DNA from: Mycolicibacterium phocaicum
GTDB taxonomy: Bacteria > Actinomycetota > Actinomycetes > Mycobacteriales > Mycobacteriaceae
Length of the DNA stretch: 64,000 bases
Assembly (NCBI RefSeq): GCF_010731115.1
Contig: NZ_AP022616.1
Span: 5,704,001-5,768,000, forward strand
Direction of reading: 5' to 3'
A program made the position numbers and the translations under genes. Position 1 is the stretch's first letter; each line of letters begins with the position of its first letter. Below the pieces are notes generated by a model. It did not search any database. It worked only from the letters and a program-made list of their open reading frames with translations, and was not told the DNA's origin. Of the stretch, positions 36,689 to 54,078 are shown piece after piece.

Positions 36689-37354
36689 TCAACCTGACGT
36701 CGTGCACGCGAGAGCCACCGCCCGGGCGTGGGGCGTCAGGAACGTCATCAACGTATCGGCGTCTGCGACGCGATGCGACGGTGCCGAGGCTGCCAACACG
36801 GCGACGAGACTGTCGTCGGCGCCGCGGATCGGGAGAGCCAGACACCCATGTCCAGGCACGAGAATCCCGCGCTGAGTGGAAAACGCCGGGCGTTCACCGC
36901 GGGCATCTGCGGCGACAATCCGCCCGATGGCAGAACACTCCGGTTCGGCGATGACCCGGGCCGGATCGGACAGCGGAAAATCCGGATCGATGTCGAACAG
37001 CTCCAACGCCGGGCGCCGCGTAGGCCGGTGCAGCACCAGATGTATGCCGAACCGCGCTTCGGCGCGCACGGCGTCGACTGCTTCGCGCAACCGGTCCGCG
37101 GGAGTGGTGGGGATGCCGACCAGCCGGTCGATGCGGCGGCCCAGCGCGAACCCGCCCAAATCCGGTGTACGAACCAGGTATTCGCTCTCCAACAAGACGG
37201 CGAGCAACCGGTACGCCGAGGACCGGGACATCCGCAGCCGGTGCGTGATCTCCAGCGCCGTGATCCCGGGTCCCGCGGCCGCGACCTCTTCGATGATGGA
37301 CAGCGCGGCGAGCGCCGAACGCGAACCGGCGTCGGGGCGCAGCGCTCGGGTCAT
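36689..37354 (-). CDS. IclR-family transcriptional regulator
   Basis: A 221-residue IclR-type regulator. The winged-helix region is ALAALSIIEEVAAAGPGITA with LEITHRLRMSRSSAYRLLAV, and the effector domain includes FGIHLVLHRPTRRPALELFD and GHGCLALPIRGADDSLVAVL. The start overlaps the stop of the transporter gene upstream (ATGA), so it is co-transcribed with the APC transporter and is a likely controller of it. Confidence 0.82.
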   Translation of the reverse strand: MTRALRPDAGSRSALAALSIIEEVAAAGPGITALEITHRLRMSRSSAYRLLAVLLESEYLVRTPDLGGFALGRRIDRLVGIPTTPADRLREAVDAVRAEARFGIHLVLHRPTRRPALELFDIDPDFPLSDPARVIAEPECSAIGRIVAADARGERPAFSTQRGILVPGHGCLALPIRGADDSLVAVLAASAPSHRVADADTLMTFLTPHARAVALACTTSG

Positions 37355-38808
37355 GACGAGCCCCGCAAGTAGCCACGCCAGACCTCGGACCTGACGGTTC
37401 CCGCGTGCGCGCCGATCGACGCGAACGCGTCCGGACGGCTGCTGCGCAATCGCCATCCGGCGGCGGCCCACAGCAGCATCCAGGCCATGGCGGCTACCGC
37501 TCCAATCCAGAACGGACCGGTGATCGTCAGTCCCCAGAATTCGGCCACCATGGCGGTGAGAACCAGTGCGCAGGCCGGTCCGATCACCAACGCCACCCTG
37601 CTGGGTTCGCCCAGGCGCCGCAGCATCGCGGGCATCGCGCCGGCCAGTGCGGCATATGCCAGCAGGTAGCCGCAGACCGCGCCGGCCATCAGCGAGCCGC
37701 ATGCCGCTGCCGGGTCGGCACCGCATGCACTCATGGCGAAAGGCACGCCGAACACGGTCGCGGTGCACACCCAGATCCCGACGGTTGGTGCCTTGCTGCG
37801 TAGATCGGTGTGGCCGAGTGCCGTCGGTAAGACGCCTTCGCGGGCCAGGGACAGCAAGACCCGGGCTGCCGCTGTCGTGAATGCCAGCGCGCAGGCGAAA
37901 GACGACAGCGTCGTCGCGAGGTAGAGGGCCGGCACCAGTATCCGGCCACCGGGTTCGGCAGCCAGTGCCCCGAACCACGAATCTGTCGGTGTCTGGCTTG
38001 GTGTTCCGGCTTGGGTCAAGGTCGCAAGCATCACGACGGGCCCGGCCAGCAGCAGCGAGCCACGGATTGCCGCTGGCACAGTGCGCAGCGGAGCGCGGGT
38101 CTCGACCGACAGCACTGTCGCGGTCTCAAAGCCGGCGAATGCCGCCATTGCGACCGCGACACCACCAGCCAGGTGCCCGAGATCGAGGATGGGAGCCAGC
38201 ACCGAATCATGTAGACGGCGTACGTCACCATGCCAGACCAGCCACCCCGCGACCACCACCACCAGACCCACCGCGATGGTCTCGGTCACCAGCGCGACCC
38301 GCGCCGACAGACGGATACCGCGAACCAGCACCACCCCGCTGGCAACTGCGAACCCGAGCGCGCCGACCGCGACCAGCCAGCCGTGCGCCGTCAGCCCCAC
38401 CGAGGATGCCAACCGTAACGCGAACGCCGAGGACTCGGTGACCGCGACCATTCCGATGCCGAGGTAGCCGAGCAACAGTGCACCGGCGGTGACGAACCCG
38501 GCCACCGGCCCGACGCCAACGGCAACGTACGTATAGAGCGAACCCGCTGCGGGCACACGCCGCGCGAATCCCCGAACCAGCCACGACAGGACCAGGGCGA
38601 GAGCGAACGCAATGGCCGTGCTCGCAACGACCGGACCGCCGTGGGCAGCGACCAATATCGGGCTCGCCGCCGCGGCGCCGCAGGGCGCCATGGCCGAAAC
38701 GGACTGTGCCGCAACATCGGCAGCGCCCAGCGCGCCGCGATCCAGGCCGCCCAGGCGCGTGCGCGGGCCCAGGCCGTGCAGTGGCACCTGATTGTCCGTG
38801 GTGAGCAT
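37351..38808 (-). CDS. APC-family amino acid/amine transporter
   Basis: A 485-residue permease with about twelve hydrophobic helices, e.g. AIAFALALVLSWLVRGFARR, GVAVAMAAFAGFETATVLSV and FWIGAVAAMAWMLLWAAAGW. The GFE motif in helix 6 and the helix 1 pattern AVSAMAPCGAAAASP belong to the APC superfamily. The substrate is unknown. It is first of a two-gene operon with the IclR regulator and divergent from the AurF-like gene. Confidence 0.83.
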   Translation of the reverse strand: MLTTDNQVPLHGLGPRTRLGGLDRGALGAADVAAQSVSAMAPCGAAAASPILVAAHGGPVVASTAIAFALALVLSWLVRGFARRVPAAGSLYTYVAVGVGPVAGFVTAGALLLGYLGIGMVAVTESSAFALRLASSVGLTAHGWLVAVGALGFAVASGVVLVRGIRLSARVALVTETIAVGLVVVVAGWLVWHGDVRRLHDSVLAPILDLGHLAGGVAVAMAAFAGFETATVLSVETRAPLRTVPAAIRGSLLLAGPVVMLATLTQAGTPSQTPTDSWFGALAAEPGGRILVPALYLATTLSSFACALAFTTAAARVLLSLAREGVLPTALGHTDLRSKAPTVGIWVCTATVFGVPFAMSACGADPAAACGSLMAGAVCGYLLAYAALAGAMPAMLRRLGEPSRVALVIGPACALVLTAMVAEFWGLTITGPFWIGAVAAMAWMLLWAAAGWRLRSSRPDAFASIGAHAGTVRSEVWRGYLRGSS

Positions 38809-38993
38809 CGCCGAGTATAGAAATCCCGCTGTTTCTGCCACGTTTCGCCGTGGTGTCGACCGCGTATCCCACACTGGGACAACACTTCCCACGCGAAGAG
38901 CCGACGCCGCAACGCGGTGGACACCGGCGCGCAAATGCCTGGCAGCACGCTCGTCGGCATCCCGATCCCTTCGATACCAACGGAGGTCACGCC

Positions 38994-40334
38994 ATGACTG
39001 TGGGCTTCACCGCACCTACCGCCGCCGAATCGACCAGGTCACACCTGAACACCGGTACGGCGGCAGGACTCGATACCGACATCGCCGCAGCGCTCTGCCG
39101 GGCGAGCACGCGCCGGGGCTTCGATCCGTTCATCGACATCGACTGGGACGCCGCCGAAAACGCACTGGACCCCGATGACGCGCGTTGGCAGCTGGACTCC
39201 GACATCGCTCCGCTCGCCGCCACCGAGTGGTACGCACAGCAACCCCTCGAGCGGCGCGTCGCGATGGGCCGCTGGCTCGCCGCGAACATCCTCAAGGTGA
39301 CACTGCAATTCGAGATGATGTTGATCCGCGGCGTGATTCACCACGCCGGCACCTTGCCCAACGGTTCAGTGGTGTTTCAGTACCTACTCCATGAGCTGAC
39401 CGACGAATGCCACCACATCCAGATGTTCCAGGAGTTCGTCAACCGCACGGGCGCCGACGTTCCCGGTATGCGCCGAGGATCCCGGTTCTTCGGGCCGATC
39501 CTGGGCTTCCTCGGCGGCTACGCCAATATCTTCCTGTTCATCGGAGTGCTGTGCGGGGAACAGCCGTTGCACTTCCAGCAGACGTTGCAGCATCGCGGTT
39601 CAGCGGGAGTGCCCCCGCTGTTGAACAAGGTCACCTCCATTCACCTCGCCGAGGAAGCCAGGCACATCTCGTTCGCAAACCACTATCTGGCACAACGAAT
39701 CCCGGCAGCGGGACGGTTGCGGCGGTGGTGCTACGCCATGGCATTCCCGATCTACCTTCGCTGGCTGATCGGCGAGATGATCGCACCACCACGCGCATTC
39801 GCCCGCCAGTTCGGGGTACCGCGACGCGTCTTCAAGGCTGCCTACTGGCGCAGCGCTCGATCCAGGCAGATGTTGGCCGAATCGGCCGCGGACGTCCGAC
39901 TCGCTGCCGACGACCTCGGTTTGCGCACCGTCTGGACCCGCTGGTTGTGGCGGCTGTTGGGTATCGACGGCCGGTTGCCGCGGTACCGCAGCGAGCCCGA
40001 TCGCAGTCAGTCGTGCGCCCGCACAGGTTTCGGCGCCACGGTGATGTGGAGCCGAATCGCGGCCGCGGCGATAGCGGCCGGTGTTGCGATGGCGGCGACG
40101 CCGGTCGGGCTGCGGATCATCACGGTGGCGGCGGTCGGAACGGCCGTGTGGGCGTCTTATCACCTGCTTCGGACCCGCCGCGGTGGCGTGGTCGGCAACC
40201 AGCCTTTCGAGTGGCCGCGGCTCGCCGTCTGGATCGCTGTGTGCAGCAGCATGATTCCCGCGGGCGGGCTGATCGGACTCGCATTGGTCGTGCTGAGCAT
40301 TCTCGCGGTTGCCGAGTTCATGCCAGGCCTATGA
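38994..40334 (+). CDS. AurF-like di-iron oxygenase with C-terminal membrane segments
   Basis: 446 residues. The core has paired ligand motifs FEMML (E107), ELTDECHH (E134, E138, H141) and HLAEEARHISFANHYL (E220, E221, H224), the pattern of AurF-type di-iron N-oxygenases and related hydroxylases. It has two or more C-terminal hydrophobic segments (AAAAIAAGVAMAATPVGLRI, MIPAGGLIGLALVVLSILAV) absent from AurF itself. GGAGG precedes the ATG at 38994. Possible roles are amine oxidation or fatty-acid-type hydroxylation; undecided. Confidence 0.72.
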   Translation: MTVGFTAPTAAESTRSHLNTGTAAGLDTDIAAALCRASTRRGFDPFIDIDWDAAENALDPDDARWQLDSDIAPLAATEWYAQQPLERRVAMGRWLAANILKVTLQFEMMLIRGVIHHAGTLPNGSVVFQYLLHELTDECHHIQMFQEFVNRTGADVPGMRRGSRFFGPILGFLGGYANIFLFIGVLCGEQPLHFQQTLQHRGSAGVPPLLNKVTSIHLAEEARHISFANHYLAQRIPAAGRLRRWCYAMAFPIYLRWLIGEMIAPPRAFARQFGVPRRVFKAAYWRSARSRQMLAESAADVRLAADDLGLRTVWTRWLWRLLGIDGRLPRYRSEPDRSQSCARTGFGATVMWSRIAAAAIAAGVAMAATPVGLRIITVAAVGTAVWASYHLLRTRRGGVVGNQPFEWPRLAVWIAVCSSMIPAGGLIGLALVVLSILAVAEFMPGL

Positions 40335-40350
40335 GGACCTTGCCGATTGG

Positions 40351-40366
40351 TAGACCGATCGGTATA
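40351..40366. promoter_or_regulatory. NemR-box-like palindrome upstream of the F420-type gene
   Basis: TAGACCGATCGGTATA contains a perfect ACCGATCGGT core (40354-40363) and matches the E. coli NemR box TAGACC-N4-GGTCTA at 11 of 12 defined positions. It lies about 45 bp before the GTG at 40412, in the position of a promoter operator. No TetR gene is adjacent. Confidence 0.55.
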
Positions 40367-40411
40367 TTCACCGTATCGGGCCCATCGCCATGGCCGCCAA
40401 GGAGGAAGCTC

Positions 40412-40840
40412 GTGGGAACAGTTCACACTCGCGCCGAGCAACGACAGTTCCGGGTGTTCCGCGCGGTCGGGCGTTACCTGCTCAACCCGACGGTGCGGGG
40501 TCTGGCGCGTCTCGGCGCCGTCCGCCCAACGCAGGTAAGCGAATTGGAAACCCGCGGTCGTAAAACCGGGCAGCTGCGGCGGGTTCCGGTTTCGCCGATC
40601 TTCGATGAGACCGGCGCCTGGGTCATCTGCGGGCACGGCACGCTGTCGGGCTGGGGTGCCAACATCGAGGCCAATCCGAATGTTCGCCTCCAGCAGGGTG
40701 ATCGATGGCGGTCCGGCATCGCGACTTTTGCGCCGGAGGACGACGTGCGTGCCCGCGTGCGGCTGTCCGGTGCGGCCGGACCGAGAATCGCGTCCTACGG
40801 GACCGCGCCGGTGTCGGTGCGCATCGAATTCACCGACTAG
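40412..40840 (+). CDS. Deazaflavin (F420)-dependent nitroreductase-family protein (Ddn-like)
   Basis: A 142-residue protein of the split beta-barrel F420-binding family. Typical features are VSELETRGRKTGQLRRVPVS, WVICGHGTLSGWGANIEAN and NVRLQQGDRWRSG; family members bind F420 and reduce quinones, nitro compounds or enones. AAGGAGGA precedes the GTG at 40412. It stands alone with its own promoter palindrome, which suggests induction by an electrophile. Confidence 0.8.
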   Translation: MGTVHTRAEQRQFRVFRAVGRYLLNPTVRGLARLGAVRPTQVSELETRGRKTGQLRRVPVSPIFDETGAWVICGHGTLSGWGANIEANPNVRLQQGDRWRSGIATFAPEDDVRARVRLSGAAGPRIASYGTAPVSVRIEFTD

Positions 40841-40900
40841 ACCGTCGGCCGTGACGCCGGTACCCGGACCATCGGATCAGAAGGATCAAAACGCGCCACC

Positions 40901-40916
40901 ACAGCGCGAGCGCTGT
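40901..40916. other. Short perfect inverted repeat
   Basis: ACAGCGC-GA-GCGCTGT is a 7-2-7 palindrome in the 215 bp between the Ddn-like gene and the first ABC permease. It could be an operator for the ABC cluster or part of a terminator. No T-run follows. Confidence 0.35.
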
Positions 40917-41055
40917 CGAATTACCGCAGGTCTGAGCCGATTCGGGGGTGATGCTGTCATCGTGCCGACGATGCGGTGACGCCGTCGCCACACCGGATCC
41001 CGTCGAAGCCGGTGTTACGTTGCGGGCCTTCAAGCAGGTCTGCAAGGGAAGATGG

Positions 41056-41934
41056 ATGGTATCGGCACCCGCACGCGGTTCTGGCGCGCTCAGCTCGAGC
41101 GGCGTGCCCACAGCAGTTCCCCTGAGTAGTGCGGCCGGAGCCGAACGACGCCGGCGCGATCGCGGCGAGCTTGCCCGGCTGGCGTTGCTGTCCGCGTTGC
41201 CGATCCTGAGCCTCGTCGTAGTCGTCATCGGCTGGGACGCCGCGGTGCGGTTCGAACTCTTCTCCGCCCGGCTCCTGCCCGCGCCCGCGCAGGTTGTGCA
41301 CGCCGCGCGTGAGATGTACAGCGACGGAACGCTGTTCGCTGATTCCGTCGCGAGCTTTCGGCGGGCGCTCCAGGGCTTTGTCGTCGGATCGCTGATCGCC
41401 ATCGTGGTGGGGACCCTCACGGGCCGATCGCGCATCGCCCGGGGGCTGTTGGAGCCGACGATCCAGATCGTCCGGCCCATCCCGGCAATTGCCCTGGTGC
41501 CGTTGGCAATCCTGTGGTTCGGCATCGGTGAAGAGTCCAAGCTGTTCCTCACCAGCCTCGGCGTCTTCTTCCCGGTCTGGGTCAACACGCACGCCGGCAT
41601 CGCGGCGACACGCGACGACCATCTACGGGTGGCGGCATCGCTCGGCGCGTCAAAATTGTTGACGTTCACCAACGTCGTGCTGCCGGGCGCACTGCCATCG
41701 GTCCTCACCGGCCTGCGTCAGGGGATCGCGACGTCCCTCATCCTGATCGTGGCATCCGAGCAGTCCGGCGTCACCGAGGGGCTCGGTTTCCGGCTCGACC
41801 AGGCGCGCCTGTTCAGCCAACCCGACCGGTTGTTCGTCTGTCTCGGGGCGCTGGGTATCGTCGGCGCCCTCGCCGATCAGCTGTTCCACCAGGCCACCCG
41901 TCACACCGTGCGCTGGGCGAAGGAACAGTCGTGA
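41056..41934 (+). CDS. ABC transporter permease, nitrate/sulfonate/taurine type (importer 1)
   Basis: A 292-residue permease of the SsuC/TauC/NrtB family. Hydrophobic helices include LALLSALPILSLVVVVIGWD and FVVGSLIAIVVGTLTGRSRI. The EAA-like coupling loop is HLRVAASLGASKLLTFTNVV. GGGAAGATGG precedes the ATG at 41056. First gene of an importer set (permease, ATPase, binding protein) with 4-bp overlaps. Substrate unknown. Confidence 0.87.
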   Translation: MVSAPARGSGALSSSGVPTAVPLSSAAGAERRRRDRGELARLALLSALPILSLVVVVIGWDAAVRFELFSARLLPAPAQVVHAAREMYSDGTLFADSVASFRRALQGFVVGSLIAIVVGTLTGRSRIARGLLEPTIQIVRPIPAIALVPLAILWFGIGEESKLFLTSLGVFFPVWVNTHAGIAATRDDHLRVAASLGASKLLTFTNVVLPGALPSVLTGLRQGIATSLILIVASEQSGVTEGLGFRLDQARLFSQPDRLFVCLGALGIVGALADQLFHQATRHTVRWAKEQS

Positions 41935-42719
41935 CCGCCGGCGACATCACGGTCGGCTCGCTGGCGGTGCGTTACCCGGGCGCGGACCGTCCCGTCGTCG
42001 ACGGCCTCGACCTCACCATCGAATCCGGGGCATTCCTGGCGATCCTCGGGCCGTCGGGTTGCGGCAAGTCGACCCTGCTGAATGTCATCGCTGGATTCGT
42101 CAGGCCGACAACGGGTTCGGTGACTTTCGCGGGTCGGCTGGTGACCGGACCGGGACGTGAGCGGGGCGTCGTGTTCCAGCGCGACGTCCTGTTCCCCTGG
42201 GCCACCGTCGGAAGCAACATCGGGTTCGCGCTGCGCGCGGCGAAGGTGCCCCGCGCGCAGCGGCGCGCCCGGATCGCCGAGTTGATCAGCGCGGTCGGTC
42301 TCGCACCGGACGTCGCGCACAAGCGTCCACACGAGCTGTCCGGTGGCATGCGGCAGCGCGTCGGAATCGCCCGTGCCCTGGCGAACAGCCCGCGAGTGTT
42401 GTTGATGGACGAGCCATTCGGTGCGCTGGACGCCTTGACCCGCCAGCAGATGCAAGACCTGGTGGTCGAACTGTGGGAGCGCAGCAGGCCTACCGTCGTC
42501 TTCGTCACGCACGATGTGGACGAGGCGATTCGCATCGCGTCGTCGATTGTCGTGATGGACCACACCGGCGCCATCGCCGATCACCTCAGCAACCCGCTGC
42601 CGCGGCCTCGGCCCGCGAGCCGTCTCGGCGAGTTCGACGATTACGCGGCACTGCGCCGTCGTCTGCACGATCTGCTGCACGGGCAGCAACCGGCCCTCAC
42701 CTCGGGAGAACACGGATGA
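41931..42719 (+). CDS. ABC transporter ATP-binding protein (importer 1)
   Basis: A 262-residue ATPase of the SsuB/TauB/NrtD type. Walker A GPSGCGKST, Q-loop VVFQRDVLFPW, signature LSGGMRQRVGIARAL, Walker B VLLMDEPFGALD and switch His in VFVTHDVDEA are all intact. The GTG start overlaps the permease stop (GTGA). Confidence 0.92.
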   Translation: MTAGDITVGSLAVRYPGADRPVVDGLDLTIESGAFLAILGPSGCGKSTLLNVIAGFVRPTTGSVTFAGRLVTGPGRERGVVFQRDVLFPWATVGSNIGFALRAAKVPRAQRRARIAELISAVGLAPDVAHKRPHELSGGMRQRVGIARALANSPRVLLMDEPFGALDALTRQQMQDLVVELWERSRPTVVFVTHDVDEAIRIASSIVVMDHTGAIADHLSNPLPRPRPASRLGEFDDYAALRRRLHDLLHGQQPALTSGEHG

Positions 42720-43684
42720 ACACACATCGGAAGATTGCCGCGATATTCGTTGCCGCGCTGGCGGTTCTGGGCATTGCGGGCTGCAGTGGTTCGAGTAAGG
42801 AAAGTGCGGCCGACTCGCTCACCCTGGCGTGGGTGGTCGACCCGTCCTGGGCGCAGGTGCCGGTCGCCAATGATCTCGGATATTTCAAGCAGCACGGGGT
42901 CAACGTCAACATCGTCCCGTTCCCGACGGGTGCCGCGGCGCTCGAGGCGCTGGCGGGCGGCGCGGTGGACATCGCCAATGGCGGCGATGTCCCCACTTCG
43001 GCTGCGGCGCTGAAGAATCCGAATCTGCGGGTTTTCGCAGACGGAGCCATCTGGCCGGAGGGCAGATTCGTCGCGCGCCGCTCGGCCGGCATCAACTCGA
43101 TTGCCGACCTGGCCGGCCGCAAGATCGCCGTGCCTCTGGGCAGCAGCGCGCATTACTTCGCGAGCCGATTCCTCACCGAAGCCAACGTGAAGGCGGACCT
43201 GATCCAGACCGGGCCGGCCGAGATCGTCACCGCGATCACCAATCACAACGTCGACGCCATCGCCGTGTTCCAGCCGGCGCTGGCGAAAGCGGTTGCGGCA
43301 CTGGGCAGTGACGCAATAGAGCTGCAGGGCCGGCAGAAGTACAACCAGCACAGTCTGTACCTGGCCAACGCGAGCGTCCTCGACTCGAAGAAGCAGGCGG
43401 TGGGCAAGTTCGTGGGGGCGATCCGCAACGCCGATGCGCCGCTGTCCGGCAAGGACCCGGCGGCCCTGACCGCGGTCGCGAAAGCAACAGGGCTGGACGA
43501 CAACCTGATCAGCCAGGTCACGTCGGAGTTCAGGTACCAGACGCACCTCAGGCCGGAACTCGCCGCTGATCTCGCCGACCGCGCCCGCTGGGCGCAGAGC
43601 ATCGGCCGCATCCCTGCTGACCAGCACATCCCCGACTACCAGAACATCATCGCCGGATCGTTTGTGACGGAGAGCAATTCATGA
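42716..43684 (+). CDS. ABC transporter substrate-binding lipoprotein (importer 1)
   Basis: A 322-residue solute-binding protein of the NMT1/SsuA/TauA type. The signal ends in lipobox VLGIAGC (Cys23), so it is membrane-anchored outside the cell. Features: SWAQVPVANDLGYFKQHGVN, PFPTGAAALEALAGGAVDIA and IADLAGRKIAVPLGSSAHYF. ATGA overlaps on both sides couple it to the ATPase and the asparaginase-like gene. Confidence 0.88.
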   Translation: MNTHRKIAAIFVAALAVLGIAGCSGSSKESAADSLTLAWVVDPSWAQVPVANDLGYFKQHGVNVNIVPFPTGAAALEALAGGAVDIANGGDVPTSAAALKNPNLRVFADGAIWPEGRFVARRSAGINSIADLAGRKIAVPLGSSAHYFASRFLTEANVKADLIQTGPAEIVTAITNHNVDAIAVFQPALAKAVAALGSDAIELQGRQKYNQHSLYLANASVLDSKKQAVGKFVGAIRNADAPLSGKDPAALTAVAKATGLDDNLISQVTSEFRYQTHLRPELAADLADRARWAQSIGRIPADQHIPDYQNIIAGSFVTESNS

Positions 43685-44637
43685 GCGGGGCATACCTGAT
43701 CGGCTTGGGCGGCACCATCTCCATGCACCAGACCGCGCAGGGCGCGGTGCCTGTGACCGGGGCGGTCGAGCTGTCCGAGACCGTGGCGGGCTTTTCCGGC
43801 GCCGAGAGCCTCGCACTGGTCGGTGGTTCCGAGGTCGACTTCGACCTGTTGGAACGTCTCGTCGCCCGGGCTCGCGAACTGGTTGCCGACGGAGCTGACG
43901 GCATCGTCGTGACCACAGGCACGGACTCGATCGAAGAGGTGGCGGCCTGGCTGTCCTACCGGGAGAACTGGCCGGTGCCGGTGGTGGTCACCGGCTCGAT
44001 GATCCTCGGCACGCGGCATGACAGCGACGGCCGCGCCAACCTCGCGGACGCGCTGGCGGTGGCGTCCTCGGGTGCCGACATCGACCCGGTGGTGGTGTTC
44101 GCCGGGAAGATCTTCGATGGCCGTGAGGCCGTGAAGGTTTCGGGGGTCGTACGAGACGCCTTCGACGCGCCGGGGCGCGGGCCCATCGGCTACGTCGTCG
44201 GCGGCCAGGTCCAGTGGCATCGGTCTCCGCAGCGCCGCACGAGCCATGGTGATCCCACCGGTCCGATTCGGCCGGTGCCCGTGCTGCTGGCGGCGTTGGG
44301 TGACGACGGATCGGTGTTCCGTGCCGCGGGGCAGGCGCAGCAGGCGATCGTGGTGGCGGCGAACGGCGCCGGCAATCTGCCGCCGAAACAGGCTGCGGCA
44401 GTGGAGGAACTCATCGACGGCGGCCGGTTCGTCGTGCTGACCACCCGGGCTGCGGACGGTCGGGTCGCTCCGGTGTACGGATACCCCGGTGGCGTGGCCG
44501 GTCTCGTCGAACACGGTGCGCAGTTGGCTGCCGGGATATCGCCGCACCGCGCGCGGCTGCTGGTGACACTCGGGCTGGCACAGGGCCGGGACAACGACGG
44601 CCTGCGGGCGTTGATCGACAGCGAGATTCGCGCATGA
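43681..44637 (+). CDS. Asparaginase/glutaminase-family amidohydrolase
   Basis: A 318-residue type I/II asparaginase-fold protein. T12 in GLGGTISM is the nucleophile threonine, and T81-D82 in VVTTGTDSIEE is the second catalytic set; VVVTGSMILGTRHDSDGRAN matches the family TGAMR...SDG region. No signal peptide, so cytoplasmic. Such enzymes hydrolyse side-chain amides. Its position inside an importer operon suggests the substrate is an imported amide and not necessarily asparagine. Confidence 0.85.
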   Translation: MSGAYLIGLGGTISMHQTAQGAVPVTGAVELSETVAGFSGAESLALVGGSEVDFDLLERLVARARELVADGADGIVVTTGTDSIEEVAAWLSYRENWPVPVVVTGSMILGTRHDSDGRANLADALAVASSGADIDPVVVFAGKIFDGREAVKVSGVVRDAFDAPGRGPIGYVVGGQVQWHRSPQRRTSHGDPTGPIRPVPVLLAALGDDGSVFRAAGQAQQAIVVAANGAGNLPPKQAAAVEELIDGGRFVVLTTRAADGRVAPVYGYPGGVAGLVEHGAQLAAGISPHRARLLVTLGLAQGRDNDGLRALIDSEIRA

Positions 44638-45863
44638 CCCGCGCCGCCGTCGATTCGGCCGTGGACCGTCGTGAACTCGTCGAGCTCACCACTCGTCTGG
44701 TGGCCGCCGGCCAGCCTTGGTGCGAGAACAGCCTTGATGGTCCGAGTCGCCCGCCGGAAGAGGAGCGCATCGCACGTCCGCTGGGTGAGTTGTTGCGCGA
44801 GTGGGGCTTCACCGTCGAGTTGGTGGGCCGCACGCCGCAGCGACCGAATGTGGTGGCGACGAAGCGCTTCGGCGCCGGTCCGACCCTCATGCTCAACGAT
44901 CACCTCGACACCTACCCGTCCGGCCCGCCGAGCCGGTGGCGCATCTGCGCCGGAAATCCCTATGCGGCAGTCGAATCGGATGGCCGGATCTATGCGCGCG
45001 GCACGTCGGACACCCGCGCCAACCTCGCGGCGCTGCTGACCGCGGCCAAACGCCTCGTCGACGATCCGCCGGAGTACGGGACCCTGCAGGTGGTCCTGAC
45101 GGTCGACGAGGAACGTAACGGCGTCGAAGGTTCCAAGTACCTGGTCGACGAGCACGGCCTGCGTCCCGACGCCTCCATCACCGTCGAACCGACCGCGTGG
45201 ACCGACGACGGCGGCAGCGGTATCGCCCTGGCGGTGGCACAGACCGGTCACGCGCTGCTGGACATCACGGCCCGCGGGCGGTCGAGCCACATCTGGCGGC
45301 CTGATACCGGTGTCAACCCGGCGCTGTTCCTCGCTGAGTTCCTGTCCGGCATCGCCGCGGATCCCGTTGGGGATTGGCCGGTTTCGGTGGTGGGCCTGCA
45401 CGCGGGGGAGACCGGCATGGCGCAGTTCACTCCGTTGGAGGCGAGCGCACGCGTTGCGGCCGTCAACATCGGCCCCGATGTGGTCGCCGGTCGGTTGCTC
45501 GAAGAGTTTCACCGCAGCCTGACCGCGGCCCGACCCGAAGGCATTGAGGTCGATGTCGAATTCGCGCCCGGCCCGACGTTCGTCGCAGGCACCGTACCGC
45601 TGACGGCCGGCGATCCGCTGGTCGCTGCGATCCGGAGCGCATACCGCGGTGTCACGGGCGAGGATGTCCGCACTTACACAAAACCTGCTTTCAACGACAC
45701 CATCCGCTTCCGCCACGTCGGCATTCCCGCGGTCACGTTCGGCCCCGGTGACGACGGGTGGGCAGTGTACGACGAGAGCATCAGCATCGACAGAATGGCA
45801 ACCGCCGTTCAGGTACTCGAAGCCGCTGTGCGGGAGTATTTTTCGGCTACCGGCCCCGCTTAG
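44634..45863 (+). CDS. M20-family metallohydrolase (ArgE/DapE/ACY1 type)
   Basis: A 409-residue dinuclear-zinc amidohydrolase. Ligands and catalytic residues are H90 and D92 (NDHLDTYP), D127 (ARGTSDTRANLAALL), E159/E160 (TVDEERNG) and a C-terminal His in RFRHVGIPAVTFGPG. The lid domain carries ARGRSSHIWRPDTGVN. It removes an acyl or amino-acid group from an amide. ATGA overlap with the asparaginase-like gene. The gene ends overlap the convergent LysR by 4 bp. Confidence 0.88.
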   Translation: MTRAAVDSAVDRRELVELTTRLVAAGQPWCENSLDGPSRPPEEERIARPLGELLREWGFTVELVGRTPQRPNVVATKRFGAGPTLMLNDHLDTYPSGPPSRWRICAGNPYAAVESDGRIYARGTSDTRANLAALLTAAKRLVDDPPEYGTLQVVLTVDEERNGVEGSKYLVDEHGLRPDASITVEPTAWTDDGGSGIALAVAQTGHALLDITARGRSSHIWRPDTGVNPALFLAEFLSGIAADPVGDWPVSVVGLHAGETGMAQFTPLEASARVAAVNIGPDVVAGRLLEEFHRSLTAARPEGIEVDVEFAPGPTFVAGTVPLTAGDPLVAAIRSAYRGVTGEDVRTYTKPAFNDTIRFRHVGIPAVTFGPGDDGWAVYDESISIDRMATAVQVLEAAVREYFSATGPA

Positions 45864-46756
45864 TGCGTCGCCAGGTGGTCATGGACACAGGCGATGAATG
45901 CCTGGCAGGCCGCCGAACGCAGGTGCGGTCGCGGTGCGACGAGATGTACCTGGCGGTGCATCTGGACGCCTGTGACGGGGCGAAGCGCCAAGGTGCTGTC
46001 GCTGTCGGCGCGGGTGCGCGCAACCGATTCCGGCAGCAGCGCCACCCCGAGGTTCTGGCGCACGAAGTGCACGACCTCGTCGACCCGGGTGACCTCGAAG
46101 GCCACCCGGCGTGGCACGCCGGCAAAGCCGCGGTCGGTTTCGTGCCGGAGTCCGTAACCGAGGGGAAAGTCGATGAACGGCAACGCCGCCAGTTCGGTCA
46201 GCGCCACCGCCCGCTGTCGGGTCAGCGGGTGATCGCGGGGCATGACCGCGATCAGCGACTCGGTGAACAAGTGGGTGAAGTCCAACTGGTCGCTGGCCGG
46301 GGAGACGTTGGAGCCGACGATGGCCGCGTCCAGCTTGCGGTCGCGCGTCGCCGTCAGCAGGACGTCGCTGCCTCCGCTGCGCAGGGTCACGCTCACGTCC
46401 GGGTAGCGCGAGTGAAACGTCGCCATCAGTGTTGCGACGTCAAGGCTTTCGGACGGCACCTCCATCATCCCGACGGTCAGGCGTCCGGTGACGGTGCCGC
46501 TGAGGGCCTGGGCGTCGACTTTGATCTGGTCGATGCCGGCGACCACCTGGTGTACCAGCGGCAGGAGCGCCTCACCGGCCGGGGTGAGCGAGACAGCCCG
46601 GGTGGTGCGCTCGAAGAGCGTGACGCCGAGCTCCTCCTCGAATTTTCGCACCTGCTGGCTGAGCGCCGATTGCACGACAAAAGAAGTCTCGGCCGCTTTG
46701 GTGAAGCTCTTGGCTTCGGCCAGGGCGACCACGTAATGGAGCTGCTGCAGATTCAT
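45860..46756 (-). CDS. LysR-family transcriptional regulator
   Basis: A 298-residue LysR regulator. HTH at residues 18-37 (FTKAAETSFVVQSALSQQVR), then the linker helix and the effector domain (LTVGMMEVPSESLDVATLMA, LIAVMPRDHPL, VRQNLGVALLPESV). It is divergent from the PHP-like gene and convergent with the importer 1 operon, so it sits in the middle of the cluster and is the best candidate for its regulator. Confidence 0.9.
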   Translation of the reverse strand: MNLQQLHYVVALAEAKSFTKAAETSFVVQSALSQQVRKFEEELGVTLFERTTRAVSLTPAGEALLPLVHQVVAGIDQIKVDAQALSGTVTGRLTVGMMEVPSESLDVATLMATFHSRYPDVSVTLRSGGSDVLLTATRDRKLDAAIVGSNVSPASDQLDFTHLFTESLIAVMPRDHPLTRQRAVALTELAALPFIDFPLGYGLRHETDRGFAGVPRRVAFEVTRVDEVVHFVRQNLGVALLPESVARTRADSDSTLALRPVTGVQMHRQVHLVAPRPHLRSAACQAFIACVHDHLATH

Positions 46757-46771
46757 GGTTATTCACTTTCA

Positions 46772-46788
46772 ATGATGAATCGCATCAT
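46772..46788. promoter_or_regulatory. LysR-type dyad between lysR and the PHP-like gene
   Basis: ATGATG-AATCG-CATCAT is a 6-5-6 inverted repeat 16 bp upstream of the LysR ATG and 46 bp upstream of the PHP-like gene start. It contains the T-N11-A layout expected of LysR binding sites. Confidence 0.6.
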
Positions 46789-46833
46789 ATCTATTAACTG
46801 GACTCCTAGGTGCAATGCGGAAAGGATGGGTTG

Positions 46834-49170
46834 ATGTCCCGTGCGATTCCCCTCCGTCCGCAGAGTCCGTTGCACAGCAATGACTGCTCGGTGGCTGCGG
46901 TGCGCGACGCCATCACTGCCGAATTCGACGCGGTGCCCTTCCTCGGCGAGCTGACGTGCTCGCACACGTCGGTGGTCGCCGGCGCGGTCGAGGAGATCGT
47001 CTTCACCTACACGGTCGGCCGGTCGGGTATCGCCGACAGCGGCTGGCTCAAACTGTGCTTCCGCTACTACTCCGACTGGGACCTGCAGACCGCTGATCCC
47101 GCCGGACGCGACTATGCCGGCGCGCAGTTGGTCAGCAGATCATTGGTGGGGCGGGCCTCCGAAGCCGGTGCGGCCACCGTGCAGCAGCTCGCAGTCCGAT
47201 ACGACGTCAAGGGCGGGGAGCGGCCGTTCCAGAAATCGCTGCTCATCCACGCGGTCGACGGCTACCTCCGACCCGGCGATGTGATCGAAATCCGGCTCGG
47301 GGACCGGCGATTCGGCGGTCCGGGCACCCGCGTGCAGACTTTCGTCGAGGACGAGTTCGAAGTGCATCTGTTCGTCGACCCGCTGGGTACCTCCCGGATG
47401 GCCCGGGCCGGTGTCAATCGGCTGGCGATCGTGCCCGGCCCGCCCGAGCGGGTGGTGGTCCGCGGACCACGGCTGGTGCGCAGCGACGCCGGCACCGTCA
47501 CGCTTCGCGCTCACCTGCAGGACCGGTGGGGCAACGCCTGCATCGATACCGCTGCCACACTGCGTGCGCTCATCGACGGCGCCACCGCGGCCGAGGCGCA
47601 CACGCCGTCCGCCGGATGGGCAAGTGTGTCCCTCGTGGTGCCGGCGCGCGCCGCGCACATCGAGGTCGTCACCGACACACGCGCGGACGTGCGGCCTGCC
47701 GACACCGTCCTCGACGTGATCGACGACCTGCTCGCCCCGCGTGCGTTCTTCACGGACCTGCATGTCCATTCGAACGACACTGTCGGCACCCAGGACACTG
47801 CCTGGAACCTGCGCTATGCCCGCGATATCGGGGCGCTCGACGTTGTCGGCTACACCGCCAACGATTTTCAGATCACCGACGAAGCCTGGATCGATGTGGT
47901 CGACGCCTGCCGGGCGATCTCGAGCGACGGCAGCCTGGTCTGCTTCCCGGGTGTCGAGTGGTGCGGCACCGCCGGTGTCGGCGGTGACCACAACGTCGTC
48001 TTTCTCGGCGACGACACCACGCTGGCGCGCTCGCTGGAATGGCACCAGGGGATGGCCAGCACCGTGCCGACACCCCAAACCTGGCCCATCACAGAGCTTT
48101 ACGCCGCCTACGAGAAGGACCCGGATTCGTACCTGCTGATCCCACACGTGGGTGGCCGGCGCGCGATCCTGGACTGGCACCATCCCGAGCTCGAACGGCT
48201 GATCGAGGTGCACTCGTCCTGGGGGAGCAGTCCCTGGTTCCTGGAAGATGCGCTGGCCCGCGGCCTGCGTCTGGGCGCCAGCGCCGCCAGCGACGAGCAC
48301 CGTGGCCGGCCCGGAGGTGGGGCGCCCGGAGCGAACATCTTCGGCGGATTCGGCGGTCTGACAGGCGTTCTCGCGCCGCAGCTCACCAAAGCCGACGTGG
48401 GACGCACGCTGCGTGCCCGCCGGACGTGGGCGACGACCGGCGCGCGTGCCGTCGCGCTGCTGCGCAGTGGCGACGCCTGGATGGGCGACGAAATCGACAC
48501 CGAAGACGACGAATTGAACGTCGACTACGCGCTGTACGGCACGTCCGGCTGGGACGAGATCGCCATCTACGACAGCACGGGGCGACTGTGGCAGCGCAAC
48601 CTGCACAACGAGACCGGACTGTCCGACGAACTCGTGCGCATCCGATGGGGTGGAGCGCGGCACCGCGACCGCTACCGGTGGGCGACGTGGTCGGGGGAAG
48701 TCCGGGTGACGGGTACCGAGTTGCTCGATGTAACACCCTGGGCCGCAGCGCATCCGGAGCAACACTTCGACGCTGCCGGCGAAGCCGTGCGCTGGCGGAC
48801 CACAACCTACGGTTCGGACGTCGGCATTGTGATGCGGTTGGCGGATCTCGCGGCGGCCCGCTTCCGAATTCAGGCGTCGGTGCACGAGGACGGCCTGCAC
48901 GTGGAGCGCGAGTTCTCGGGTGCCGAGTTGATCCGTGCCGGTCACATCGAAACCGCCATGGGCGGGCTGAATCTGCGGTTGCGCGCCGAACGGGTGGCCG
49001 AATTCTCCGGGTTGCCCACCACGGTAACGGGCGACCTCGTGCTCGGTCTGCCACCTGGCACCAGTGCCACGTATGTGCGCGCCACCCAGTCCGACGGTCA
49101 TCAGGTGTGGACCAGCCCGCTGTTCGTCACCCGTTCGGGCGGCCAGACGCGATGTCCCGAGCCGGCCTGA
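46834..49170 (+). CDS. Large PHP/DUF3604-like putative metallohydrolase
   Basis: A 778-residue protein. The first 280 residues look like beta-rich domains; the central part is a PHP-like metallophosphoesterase region with FFTDLHVHSNDTVGT (HxH ligands), FPGVEWCGTAGVGGDHNVVF, YLLIPHVGG, LIEVHSSWGSSPWF and GASAASDEHRGRPGG. The C-terminal third is a beta domain (YDSTGRLWQRNLHNETG). No signal peptide is visible. DUF3604 proteins are poorly characterised. It is the first gene after the LysR promoter and 39 bp upstream of importer 2, so it is probably a hydrolase of the imported substrate. Confidence 0.72.
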   Translation: MSRAIPLRPQSPLHSNDCSVAAVRDAITAEFDAVPFLGELTCSHTSVVAGAVEEIVFTYTVGRSGIADSGWLKLCFRYYSDWDLQTADPAGRDYAGAQLVSRSLVGRASEAGAATVQQLAVRYDVKGGERPFQKSLLIHAVDGYLRPGDVIEIRLGDRRFGGPGTRVQTFVEDEFEVHLFVDPLGTSRMARAGVNRLAIVPGPPERVVVRGPRLVRSDAGTVTLRAHLQDRWGNACIDTAATLRALIDGATAAEAHTPSAGWASVSLVVPARAAHIEVVTDTRADVRPADTVLDVIDDLLAPRAFFTDLHVHSNDTVGTQDTAWNLRYARDIGALDVVGYTANDFQITDEAWIDVVDACRAISSDGSLVCFPGVEWCGTAGVGGDHNVVFLGDDTTLARSLEWHQGMASTVPTPQTWPITELYAAYEKDPDSYLLIPHVGGRRAILDWHHPELERLIEVHSSWGSSPWFLEDALARGLRLGASAASDEHRGRPGGGAPGANIFGGFGGLTGVLAPQLTKADVGRTLRARRTWATTGARAVALLRSGDAWMGDEIDTEDDELNVDYALYGTSGWDEIAIYDSTGRLWQRNLHNETGLSDELVRIRWGGARHRDRYRWATWSGEVRVTGTELLDVTPWAAAHPEQHFDAAGEAVRWRTTTYGSDVGIVMRLADLAAARFRIQASVHEDGLHVEREFSGAELIRAGHIETAMGGLNLRLRAERVAEFSGLPTTVTGDLVLGLPPGTSATYVRATQSDGHQVWTSPLFVTRSGGQTRCPEPA

Positions 49171-49209
49171 CCTCGCGTCTCACCCGCTCGATCGACATCA
49201 AGGAAAACC

Positions 49210-50238
49210 GTGTTCTCTCAACGTCATTTCACCCGGCTGCTCGCGCTGGGCGCAGCCGTCACCGCCGTTGTCGCGCTGGCCGGATGCGCTTCATCGACCA
49301 AGTCGGCGTCGTCGTCTGCCGTGCCGTTGCGGCTGGGCTACCTGACTCGTGTCACTCACGCGCCGGCGCTGGTCGGCGTCAACGACGGGCTGTTCGCCCA
49401 CCAGCTCGGCTCCGGGGTCACCTTCACAGCGCAACCGTTCAGCACGGGCACCGAAGAGATCACCGCGCTGCTGTCGGGCCATCTCGACGCCGCATACGTG
49501 GGGCCCAACCCCGCTTTCAACGCCTGGCAGAAATCGAATGGCAAAGCCATCAAGATCATTTCAGGTGCCGCCAGCGGTGGTACTTCGATGGTCGTCCAAC
49601 CGGGGATCACGTCTGCCCAGGACCTCAGGGGCAAGACGGTGGCTGATCCGGCGCTCGGTGGCACCCAGGACGTCAGCCTCCGCGATTGGCTCGCCAAAAA
49701 CGGGTTGAAGACCGATACCCAAGGCGGCGGCGATGTTTCGGTCAAGCCGACCAACCCGGAATCGGCGATCGTCCAGCAGTTCGTGAGCAAGCAGATCGCC
49801 GGTGCGCTGGATTCCGCGCCGTTCGACGTGCAGATGATCAGAGCCGGCGGCGTGCGGTTGTGGTCGGACCCGAACACCATCACCGTGCTGGTCGTGCGTC
49901 AGGACTTCCTCGCCGAGCATCCCGACGCCGTGGCCGGGCTGCTGCGCGGCCAGGTTCAGGCCAATGACAAGATCGGCGCCGATCCCACGGCCGCAGCGCA
50001 ATCGGCCAATGCCGCACTCACGAAAACGCTTGGGAAGGGCCTGGATCCGGAGGTGTTGGCCGAGTCGTTCAAGGAGACGACGTTCACCAACGATCCGGGC
50101 GTCGCATCGCTGCGCGAACAGGTGAGCAAGGCCGTCGCCATCGGCCTGTTGCAGCCGCTGAACATCGACGGTCTCTTCGATCCGGCCCCGCTCAACGCGG
50201 TGCTGGCGGCATCAGGCAAACCGGCGGTTGCGGCGTGA
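49210..50238 (+). CDS. ABC transporter substrate-binding lipoprotein (importer 2)
   Basis: A 342-residue SsuA/TauA/NrtA-type binding protein. Lipobox VALAGC (Cys26). Mature features: RLGYLTRVTHAPALVGVNDG, LLSGHLDAAYVGPNPAFNAW, SGGTSMVVQPGITSAQDLRG and NTITVLVVRQDFLAEHPDAV. AAGGAAAACC precedes the GTG at 49210. Only weakly like the first binding protein in the cluster, so it probably recognises a different ligand. Confidence 0.9.
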   Translation: MFSQRHFTRLLALGAAVTAVVALAGCASSTKSASSSAVPLRLGYLTRVTHAPALVGVNDGLFAHQLGSGVTFTAQPFSTGTEEITALLSGHLDAAYVGPNPAFNAWQKSNGKAIKIISGAASGGTSMVVQPGITSAQDLRGKTVADPALGGTQDVSLRDWLAKNGLKTDTQGGGDVSVKPTNPESAIVQQFVSKQIAGALDSAPFDVQMIRAGGVRLWSDPNTITVLVVRQDFLAEHPDAVAGLLRGQVQANDKIGADPTAAAQSANAALTKTLGKGLDPEVLAESFKETTFTNDPGVASLREQVSKAVAIGLLQPLNIDGLFDPAPLNAVLAASGKPAVAA

Positions 50239-51044
50239 CCCGCTGTGCGGACGCCGGTGAGATCACCGTGACTGTTCCCACGCCGCCTCCGGTACCGCAG
50301 CCGGCATTGGAACTGGTCGACGTGACAAAGCGCTATGGGAAGGGATCTGCCGCGGTAGCAGCCTTGGACCCGGTCAGCCTGACGGTCACCGAAGGCGAAT
50401 TCGTCTGTCTGGTCGGCAGTTCCGGTTGTGGCAAGAGCACGCTGTTGTCGATCATCGCCGGACTGGACGCGCCGTCGAGCGGGACGGTCGAGACGTTCGG
50501 TCGCCGGGTGGCACTGATGTTTCAGGAGCCGGCTCTGTTCCCCTGGCTGACGGCAGCAGCCAACGTCGATCTCGCGCTGCGGGCGCGTGCGGTGCCGCGG
50601 GACGTGCGCCGCGAGCGGGTCGCCCGCCTGCTGACCACGGTCGGGTTGGCCGAATTCGCCGGCAAGCGTCCACATCAGTTGTCGGGCGGTATGCGGCAGC
50701 GGGTTGCGCTGGCCCGCGCGCTCGCTCAGGACGCCGACGTGCTGCTGATGGACGAGCCTTTTGGCGCGCTGGATGCACTGACGCGTGATCTGCTCCACGA
50801 GGAACTCGAGCACATCGTCGAATCACAGGGATTGACCGTGGTTTTCGTGACACACAATGTGCGGGAAGCGGTGCGGCTGGCTGACCGGGTGCTTCTCTTG
50901 GGGGCTCGACCGGGTCGTGTGGTCGAAGAGTTCCAGGTTCGGGCATCGCGTCCTCGTCAGATCAACACCGCCGACGTCGCGGAGTTGGCGGCACACATCA
51001 CGGGGCGACTGCACGAGGAAGGCAGCGGTAATCGTGGTCGGTAG
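50235..51044 (+). CDS. ABC transporter ATP-binding protein (importer 2)
   Basis: A 269-residue SsuB/TauB-type ATPase with Walker A GSSGCGKST, Q-loop LMFQEPALFPW, signature LSGGMRQRVALARAL, Walker B VLLMDEPFGALD and switch His VFVTHNVREA. GTG overlaps the binding-protein stop (GTGA). Confidence 0.92.
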   Translation: MTRCADAGEITVTVPTPPPVPQPALELVDVTKRYGKGSAAVAALDPVSLTVTEGEFVCLVGSSGCGKSTLLSIIAGLDAPSSGTVETFGRRVALMFQEPALFPWLTAAANVDLALRARAVPRDVRRERVARLLTTVGLAEFAGKRPHQLSGGMRQRVALARALAQDADVLLMDEPFGALDALTRDLLHEELEHIVESQGLTVVFVTHNVREAVRLADRVLLLGARPGRVVEEFQVRASRPRQINTADVAELAAHITGRLHEEGSGNRGR

Positions 51045-51876
51045 TGGAGTCGCCGAATTGGCTGGGTCGGCACGGCACACCGCAGGTCGACTGCAGTCGG
51101 TGCTGGCATCGCTGTGGGCGAAGGCGCTGGCCCTGCTGGTCGTGTTGGGGGCGTGGCAGCTGGTCTGTCTGAGCGGCTGGAAATCGTCCGTGGTCTTGCC
51201 CAGTCCCGCGGCTGTCGGCGCCACCCTGTGGCAGCAGTTGCACGATGCGGTGTTGTGGCAGGCGGCTTCGACGACGATGGCGCGGGCGGTAATCGGTTTC
51301 GGCTTGTCGCTGCTCATCGGTACGGTCATCGGTAGCGTTCTGTCCCGTAACAAACTGTTGCGCAACACGTTCGGCCCACTGATCACCGGACTGCAGACGA
51401 TGCCGGCCATCGCCTGGTTTCCCTTCGCGATCATCTTCTTCGGTCTCAACACCTCGGCCATCCTGTTCGTCATCGTCATCGGTGCCGCGCCGTCGGTGGC
51501 GCTCGGCGTGATCTCGGGCGCCGACCACATTCCACCGCTGCAGTTGCGCGCGGCAAAGACCATGGGGCTGAAGCGGTTTGCGCTGTACCGGCATGTGATC
51601 CTGCCGGCCTCACTGCCGACGTTCGTCAGCGGATTACGTCAGGGCTGGGCGTTCGCATGGCGCAGCCTCATGGCGGGTGAACTGGTCGTGATGGTCGCCG
51701 GCACTGCATCGATCGGGGTCCTGCTGGAGAACGCGCAGAACATGAGTGACATGCCGCTGGCCATAGCCGTCATGATCGTCGTGCTGGTGATCGGCATCAT
51801 CGTCGACTCAGTGTTCGGCGTGGCGGACCGACAAATCCGCCGGTACTGGGGACTGGTCGACGGTGACCGCGAATGA
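51034..51876 (+). CDS. ABC transporter permease (importer 2)
   Basis: A 280-residue SsuC/TauC-type permease. Hydrophobic helices include ALALLVVLGAWQLVCLSGW and AVIGFGLSLLIGTVIGSVLS; the coupling loop is QLRAAKTMGLKRFALYRHVI. The GTG at 51034 overlaps the ATPase gene by 11 bp. Last transport gene before the phosphoesterase. Confidence 0.88.
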   Translation: MVGSGVAELAGSARHTAGRLQSVLASLWAKALALLVVLGAWQLVCLSGWKSSVVLPSPAAVGATLWQQLHDAVLWQAASTTMARAVIGFGLSLLIGTVIGSVLSRNKLLRNTFGPLITGLQTMPAIAWFPFAIIFFGLNTSAILFVIVIGAAPSVALGVISGADHIPPLQLRAAKTMGLKRFALYRHVILPASLPTFVSGLRQGWAFAWRSLMAGELVVMVAGTASIGVLLENAQNMSDMPLAIAVMIVVLVIGIIVDSVFGVADRQIRRYWGLVDGDRE

Positions 51877-52973
51877 CCGGCGGTGCGGGACCATTCCGCC
51901 TCTGGGCCTTCGGCGATGCACACGTGGGCACCGACCGGAGATTCGGCAGAGACAGTCTGGCCGAGGCGATCTCGCAGTCCGAGGCCGGCGGGTCTGAGGG
52001 TGGCCCGGCGTTCGACTGGGACATCGCAGTGGACGTCGGCGACATGTCCGGCGCCCATCACCACCTGCCGGACGACGCTGAGGGGTGCGAGCTGCGGCGG
52101 CAGTTCGCCAGCCTGCGCCGTCATCGGCGCGAGGACATCTACAGCGTGTGCGGCAACCATGACCGCAGTGGGCTGGACGAACCCGAGGCCTGGTGGTGGC
52201 AGAAATGGGTTGACCCGCTCGGACAGCACACCGCATCTTCCGGAGTCGACAACGCCCGCCGGCCCTTTGCGGTCGACGGGGTTTGGCAGCACTACGCGTT
52301 CCGGGTGGGGAACCTGCTGTTCCTCATGCTGAGTGACCGCAACGAACCAACCCAGTCTGTCGGTCGCGGCACGTTGGGCGGAAACCCCGGGGGAGTGGTC
52401 AGCGGTGAGACGTTCCGATGGTGGAAAGCCATGGTGCTGGCCAATCCCGACGCGATCATCGTCACGGTGCACCACTACGTCCTCAAGGACACCACGGTCG
52501 CCTCGGGAGAGTGGGAAGGCGTGCGTCGCGACGCCGACGGCCAGTTGGTCGAGCACTACCACCGGCCGTTCGCGGCAGGCACACCGCAGGGCGCGTCGTA
52601 CCTGTACTGGGTCGACAGTCAGCCCGACTCCGGCGCCTTCGAGCAGTTCCTGGCCGCGCATCCGGGGCGAGTGCAGCTGTGGATCGCCGGGCACACCCAC
52701 ACCCATCCCGATGACAATTTCGGTGGCAAGAGTCATATCGAACAGCGCTGGGGCACATGGTTTCTCAACGTCGCCTCGTTGAGCCGGCACCACATGCCGA
52801 TCACGACGCTGCCACTGAGTCGGTTGCTGACGTTCACACCGGGCAGCGCGGAAGTCCGGGTGCAGTGCTACCTGCACACCAGCCAGCACGCGCCGCAGGG
52901 CTGGTATGACAAGGCGGAGAAGGTGATTGCGCTGCAGACGCCGTTCCGCTGGACCGGTTCGCCGGCGGAATGA
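51873..52973 (+). CDS. Calcineurin-like metallophosphoesterase
   Basis: A 366-residue phosphoesterase. FGDAHVG (D15, H17), VDVGDMSG, VCGNHDRSG, VTVHHYVL and IAGHTHTHPDD provide all five canonical metal and phosphate motifs in order. No signal peptide. ATGA overlap with the importer 2 permease. It probably removes phosphate from an imported phosphoester or from a product of the PHP-like enzyme. Ends 1 bp from the convergent gap stop. Confidence 0.85.
   Translation: MTGGAGPFRLWAFGDAHVGTDRRFGRDSLAEAISQSEAGGSEGGPAFDWDIAVDVGDMSGAHHHLPDDAEGCELRRQFASLRRHRREDIYSVCGNHDRSGLDEPEAWWWQKWVDPLGQHTASSGVDNARRPFAVDGVWQHYAFRVGNLLFLMLSDRNEPTQSVGRGTLGGNPGGVVSGETFRWWKAMVLANPDAIIVTVHHYVLKDTTVASGEWEGVRRDADGQLVEHYHRPFAAGTPQGASYLYWVDSQPDSGAFEQFLAAHPGRVQLWIAGHTHTHPDDNFGGKSHIEQRWGTWFLNVASLSRHHMPITTLPLSRLLTFTPGSAEVRVQCYLHTSQHAPQGWYDKAEKVIALQTPFRWTGSPAE

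Positions 52974-52974: not shown

Positions 52975-54078
<1,104 letters not shown>

Follow-up and report, generated by a model that had tools for sequence, protein, structure and literature searches.

Operons that combine an importer with a hydrolase are already known, and several described systems resemble parts of the locus analyzed here, a block of eleven genes at positions 41056–52973 of a 64,000-nucleotide stretch of the Mycolicibacterium phocaicum genome (the window). The sulfonate and taurine importers SsuABC and TauABC consist of an NMT1-type lipoprotein, a BPD permease, and an ATPase, and both halves of the block contain these three components. Unlike those systems, neither half has an SsuD or TauD gene, and the permease and binding lipoprotein of each half, together with the ATPase of the first (best 25 of 187 families), score below every curated equivalog cut-off. 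The carbaryl hydrolases CehA and McbA are comparable to one enzyme of the block, D3604. A relative of D3604, P0031, carries the database name 'CehA/McbA family metallohydrolase', and the histidine set reported for CehA fits the HxH...H...DxH pattern of D3604. According to the parts of the literature consulted, cehA is plasmid-borne or flanked by insertion elements, with a TonB-dependent receptor upstream in one strain, whereas D3604 lies beside anion importers of the cytoplasmic membrane; the CehA-type activities reported there concern carbamate pesticides and a single carbamate from plants. Sb-PDE and No-PDE, diesterases of organophosphate degraders, belong like D3604 to the PHP superfamily, and in the available accounts their reaction is followed by a phosphomonoesterase step. 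A second enzyme of the block, a phosphoesterase, shares 15–17% identity over the aligned part with the class III phosphodiesterases GpdQ and Rv0805. Two further enzymes share Pfam domains with bacterial L-asparaginases and with the M20 deacylases ArgE and DapE, and differ from these in falling below the NCBIfam cut-offs listed (for the M20 protein, best 25 of 46 families) and in standing together in one importer operon. We report that this block, which looks like one pathway, is two separately inherited operons lying side by side in a small clade.

Results

Distribution of the two modules

The eleven genes form two adjoining units, module L and module R. The preliminary description of this DNA had listed the same genes, order, and families, with two importers and separate binding lipoproteins, and profile matches recovered all of them. 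It had also joined them into a single scavenging system around the LysR gene and proposed a check of their co-occurrence across genomes; this check revealed that the importers and hydrolases are independent and fall into two modules, and the putative LysR site lies only before D3604. In a survey of 248 genomes of the genus, with module L scored by its M20 gene at ≥72% identity, this gene was present at 72–100% in nine genomes, the window included, among the matches listed; the other M20 matches listed were at about 30% identity, or, in G533, a 41-residue fragment only. Among these matches, module L occurred without D3604 in 6/9 genomes, and D3604, carried by 23 of the 248 genomes (a 24th match, in G545, was short and weak), occurred without module L in 20/23. 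The five genes of module L are in identical order in all nine genomes (the window, L133, L134, and L234–L239). In the six genomes with module L only, the block occupies three further positions on the chromosome, each with different neighbors, giving four contexts in total, and no lysR relative was found in the stretches fetched from these six. In genome G568 (L234), a different place on the chromosome carries module L as a unit, with the stretch 40991–45847 (+ strand) aligning over its full length at 85%. The binding-protein gene of module L is split over two frames in G404 (L235, 7078–8039), where the other four genes are present.

A reference-genome scan with alignment of D3604 confirmed 118 loci and kept 80, of which 24 are mycobacterial (L002–L024 and L027) and 56 lie outside mycobacteria. 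The asparaginase-like and M20 genes join only one of the 24 mycobacterial loci, L002, and modules L and R are adjacent in the window and in three near relatives, L002, L133, and L134. Module R is retained in two other close relatives, L004 and L135, where module L is missing at this site except for short end remnants. In L135, the left flank of the window (34306–41069) is contiguous with the M20 end (from 45786), while in L004 the M20 end comes immediately after the initial part of the permease, with end points differing from those of L135. These absences are most simply explained by two independent losses.

Importers beside D3604

To describe the surroundings of D3604 outside mycobacteria, we classed 59 loci, the 56 from the scan and three close matches, by the importer within 5 kb. 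An SsuABC-like importer was present in 24 loci, a DASS symporter in 21, and TctABC in five, with none of these in the remaining nine, so that an anion importer of one of three unrelated types lies within 5 kb in 50/59 loci. Each of the 21 DASS genes has the same orientation as D3604 and lies no more than 181 bp from it. Genomes carry few DASS genes, and given this scarcity, a chance placement of 21 of them so near D3604 is implausible. Of the 76 loci clustered, 15 contain a Crp-type regulator and 15 a GntR-UTRA regulator, not always adjoining D3604. In a FastTree tree of 101 proteins, with 16 unlabelled rows left out of the change counts, the close group requires at least 10 changes of importer type; over the whole tree, the well supported branches alone force seven changes for the ABC label and seven for the DASS label. 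Judging from these sequences, D3604, a widespread hydrolase, seems to have switched between unrelated importers on many occasions. A single enzyme whose importers are interchangeable is the pattern expected if it degrades an imported anion in one step.

More distant paralogues have other surroundings. Among 17 Hyphomicrobiales paralogue loci (30–38%; part of those found), there were eight TRAP operons, two Tct importers, one other ABC importer, and six loci with none. The TRAP (DctPQM) operons (L178, L180, L182, L184–L186, L189, and L190) hold DUF3604 paralogues at 30–38% to the L057 D3604, some of them with a GntR-UTRA regulator. These paralogues carry HxQ instead of HxH, so that their active site differs.

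The D3604 protein

D3604 (46834–49170, + strand) is a CehA/McbA-type PHP metallohydrolase of 778 residues. Its match to PF12228 (DUF3604) is partial, covering residues 350–446, and exceeds the curated cut-off (23.6 bits versus 20.4). No signal peptide is visible, and the protein is therefore likely cytoplasmic. The closest named records are from Mycolicibacterium sp. lyk4-40-TYG-92 (94%), CBMA 226 (89%), and M. llatzerense (86%). Sequence analysis revealed the metal-ligand residues HxH, E, H, and DxH, and the corresponding H310, H312, E375, H438, D487, and H489 are invariant in 94/94 members of the close group (the window and near-copies included). In the more distant paralogues, H312 is replaced by Q in 17/17. 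Canonical PHP proteins have a third-metal TDH motif; N343-D344 is invariant at the place expected for it, in an alignment that holds no canonical PHP protein. A sequence search (E ≤1) found no relative with a solved structure, either for D3604 or for the phosphoesterase. A fold search with the D3604 model matched Ig-like and beta-sandwich structures, chiefly within residues 32–297, and barely probed the PHP part.

Module R in mycobacteria

In all 24 mycobacterial loci, the genes for LysR, D3604, and the three importer proteins sbp2, atp2, and perm2 occur together, and the phosphoesterase gene accompanies them in 21/24. The binding lipoprotein sbp2 (49210–50238, + strand) is of the NMT1_2 type (PF13379, 90 bits) with a lipobox-like LAGC. 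It is followed on the same strand by the ATPase atp2 (50235–51044; PF00005, 115 bits) and by the permease perm2 (51034–51876, from a chosen and uncertain GTG start), which is SaoP-like in NCBIfam at 123.6 bits versus a cut-off of 295. Another, distant importer lies beyond LysR in 4/24 loci (L014, L015, L021, and L023), at 31–49% (ATPase 44–49%, permease 31–32%).

The LysR-type regulator (45860–46756, − strand; PF00126/PF03466) is divergent from D3604 in 24/24 loci. The gap between lysR and D3604 contains a palindromic element, TGATnAATCnCATCATATCTAT (46773–46794, + strand), which is conserved with 0–4 mismatches in 25 sequences, those of the window and 24 relatives. The genome, a single contig of 5.85 Mb, holds one match to it at ≤3 mismatches, the one in front of D3604. 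This element is likely a LysR site and promoter element. Because it is conserved before D3604 and unique in the genome, and because no lysR relative was found in the stretches fetched from the six genomes with module L only, LysR would serve module R.

The phosphoesterase

The last gene of the block (51873–52973, + strand) encodes a class III metallophosphoesterase without a visible signal peptide. Its motifs DxH, GD, GNHD, H, and GHxH are present, and D15, H17, D57, N95, H96, H200, H274, and H276 are invariant in 23 rows. In a fold search, the model (mean predicted local distance difference test [pLDDT] score, 75.9) resembled GpdQ most and was also similar to Rv0805 and purple acid phosphatases, and the modeled fold is consistent with class III. 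In-frame stops had been reported within matches to the gene; of nine loci queried, four gave a translation, and the stop, which in L101, L104, and L119 closes the match, is located at the protein end in these three and in L111 and is taken as the natural one. Three relatives from other sources at 64–66% identity (P0181, P0204, and P0237) have N-terminal extensions resembling signal peptides, suggesting a possible extracytoplasmic role of the family elsewhere.

Within the genus, the phosphoesterase was matched in 40/248 genomes, 37 of them at full length; it is somewhere in the genome in 22 of the 23 genomes with D3604 and in 15 of the 225 others. Ten of these 15 orphan-copy genomes were examined over 14.5–15 kb of context, and in 7/10 the gene lies at one common place. 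The orphan copies at this place (76–78%) are those of L125–L127 and L129–L132, with a peptidyl-tRNA hydrolase gene alongside in L125. Among 296 Actinomycetota sampled, the sole other match was weak (E of 8e-4). The query matches strongly within the genus and gave no match in 50/50 of the non-mycobacterial D3604 genomes searched, which represent 50 of the 56 such loci; in the mycobacterial loci L008, L010, and L024, the phosphoesterase was not found near D3604. We had considered it as an obligatory partner of D3604, and this was ruled out by the 0/50 outside mycobacteria and the orphan contexts within the genus. The phosphoesterase is an accessory, added in most of the mycobacteria that have D3604.

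Module L and the gene layout

Module L begins with an importer on the + strand: the permease perm1 (41056–41934; BPD_transp_1, SsuC/TauC-like; PF00528, 73.7 bits), the ATPase atp1 (41931–42719; TauB/NtrCD-like; PF00005, 120 bits), and the NMT1-type binding lipoprotein sbp1 (42716–43684; lipobox-like IAGC; PF09084, 69.6 bits). In NCBIfam, perm1 misses all equivalog cut-offs, atp1 reaches at most 248 bits versus a cut-off of 357 (best 25 of 187 families), and sbp1 scores 103 bits against SsuA_fam, with a cut-off of 163.5. Downstream on the same strand are an asparaginase-like amidohydrolase (43681–44637) and an ArgE/DapE-like M20 family metallohydrolase (44634–45863; PF01546, 101.8 bits versus a cut-off of 24.6). 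The former has both asparaginase domains, PF00710 and PF17763, above cut-off, and remains below the type I and type II asparaginase cut-offs (111.7 versus 314.3 and 84 versus 260.5, respectively); the latter is below the NCBIfam cut-offs among the best 25 of 46 families. Both hydrolases are well conserved in an alignment of seven orthologues. In M20 metallohydrolases, a C-terminal His is a metal ligand; the seven M20 orthologues have an invariant WAVYDESI stretch at the position where this His is expected. Relatives of the asparaginase-like protein were matched in 48 other genomes of 61 searched. The M20, permease, and binding-protein genes of module L were not found in 12 stretches around such relatives (11 from ten genomes and one around an own paralogue), and three of the 12 hold a distant ABC ATPase. 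From the protein families only, the module L importer probably feeds two amide-cleaving hydrolases, the substrate being an imported amide or N-acyl compound that is cut twice.

An overlap of 4 bp at nearly every junction had been described for the block. It is exact at 7/10 junctions, one of which, M20/LysR, is convergent; the others are a divergent 77 bp between LysR and D3604, a 39-bp gap between D3604 and sbp2, and an 11-bp overlap between atp2 and perm2 with the chosen start. A lone GAPDH gene (52975–54033) is convergent with the phosphoesterase gene, 1 bp apart. The block was also said to lack a sulfonate monooxygenase and a taurine dioxygenase, and indeed none is among its eleven genes, but two SsuD-like genes are located elsewhere in the genome (465 and 435 bits against TIGR03565, cut-off 518), which weakens the argument drawn from this absence.

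Discussion

The explanation that we consider likely is that the block comprises two separate uptake-and-hydrolysis operons, with D3604 hydrolyzing a small organic anion in a single step after its import. The sequences show that the modules are separable and that the genes within each are inherited together, that the importer changes beside the same hydrolase, and that the metal-ligand pattern and an operator-like site are conserved; the direction of transport, the hydrolysis of the imported compound, the cellular location, and the regulation are deduced from them. LysR, acting through the conserved site between lysR and D3604, would control the module R importer, and this importer would bring in the anion. 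D3604, as a cytoplasmic metal-dependent CehA/McbA-type hydrolase, would split this anion in a single reaction, whose product would then enter general metabolism. In most mycobacteria with D3604, the phosphoesterase would have been added to module R, and outside mycobacteria, D3604 would do the same job behind SsuABC-like, DASS, or TctABC importers. In module L, a separate importer would supply the asparaginase-like and M20 hydrolases. The hydrolytic use of an imported compound, as first proposed for the whole block, is thus a fair reading of each half, though not of one system around LysR.

Several observations weigh against this explanation. Nine of the 59 classed loci are without the three importer types (L025, L026, L031, L034, L035, L040, L046, L054, and L062), among which L025 and L026 have a binding protein only and some lie at contig ends, and 5 of the 24 ABC importers are wholly on the strand opposite D3604 (L033, L038, L045, L053, and L073). 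The tree was built rapidly, with no bootstrap, and includes a long branch, L175. The importer proteins scanned (perm1, atp1, sbp1, sbp2, and perm2) miss the curated equivalog cut-offs and so name no substrate; the importers could also carry carboxylates or phosphoesters. The D3604 model is weak in the PHP part, with a mean pLDDT of 70.6 and many PHP residues below 50, and the link between CehA and the PHP fold is one that we presume from a database name.

As to the substrate of module R, some hints point to sulfur. The binding proteins are nearest to the SsuA family, with that of L037 reaching 158.7 bits versus the cut-off of 163.5. A SoeABC-like molybdoenzyme with an iron-sulfur (FeS) protein and a DmsC anchor lies near D3604 in 2/56 mapped loci (L046 and L057, both Hyphomicrobiales metagenome-assembled genomes); the composition of SoeABC is taken from the accessible part of PMC8076601. 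In L057, the FeS domain of the molybdopterin subunit begins at residue 18. A weakly CysP-like binding protein is within 5 kb in 11/59 loci. These hints are few: L046 and L057 are near kin, with D3604 proteins 78% alike, and the CysP-like protein scores 26.5 bits versus a cut-off of 308. The latter, a stand-alone SBP_bac_11 binding protein that is faintly CysP- and AcfC/PEB3-like, stands near D3604 whatever the importer type (L033, L037, L038, L040–L042, L049, L050, L052, L055, and L070) and farther off in L057. A sulfur-containing organic anion is our favored guess for the substrate, and none of the hints to sulfur, a phosphodiester, or a carbamate or ester is decisive.

Alternatively, module R may handle a natural carbamate or carboxylic ester bearing an anionic group, with the CehA-type chemistry retained, which we regard as possible but doubtful. 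The database name of P0031 agrees with such a role, and H310, H312, H438, and H489 of D3604 are plausible counterparts, by the HxH...H...DxH pattern, of CehA His313, His315, His453, and His495, which are reported to be important (PMC8292978, as far as its available text goes). The same text reports that CehA also hydrolyzes the plant carbamate physostigmine, which favors this alternative, and calls CehA an esterase, giving no PHP family placement in the part available, which counts against the alternative and against our own explanation alike. Carbamate insecticides are not anions, whereas the importers of D3604 are anion importers.

The scavenging of phosphodiesters, in which D3604 would be a diesterase of the PHP family and the GpdQ/Rv0805-like enzyme would remove the remaining phosphate, is unlikely. 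PHP diesterases exist, and the phosphoesterase could perform the second step. Against this, the phosphoesterase is unmatched in the 50 non-mycobacterial D3604 genomes searched and is not near D3604 in three mycobacterial loci, and 15 genomes of the genus have it without D3604. Mature Sb-PDE is, in the accounts at hand, a secreted protein of 413 residues with no importer partner described, as opposed to the 778 residues of D3604 with no visible signal. To our knowledge, SsuA-type, DASS, and Tct systems are not typical importers of phosphodiesters. That both importers and all hydrolases act together on a single compound, or on fragments of it, under LysR control is very improbable, since the adjacency, the 4-bp overlaps, and the adjoining modules in the window and three relatives are contradicted by the genome distribution, by the module L remnants beside the retained module R in L004 and L135, and by a LysR site found only before D3604, with no lysR relative in the six stretches with module L only.

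With two operons and a one-step D3604 as the preferred explanation, the apparent single pathway of the first reading is corrected to two. In the open-licence literature in PMC, no CehA/McbA-type enzyme naturally associated with swapped anion importers was found among the papers searched. We tentatively suggest, as a somewhat remote prospect, a widely distributed and so far undescribed pathway in which D3604 and its relatives serve as key enzyme and break down, in one step, a natural organic anion of common occurrence; the likeliest candidate is a sulfur compound from which sulfite or sulfate would be released. Such a pathway would be present in mycobacteria, Proteobacteria, and other bacteria, with the enzyme moving between genomes and coupled to any anion importer at hand. 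Ligands common to the three unrelated importer types would lead directly to the D3604 substrate. The recurrent pairing of D3604 with exchangeable anion importers in several phyla indicates that this branch of the family has a natural, imported substrate.

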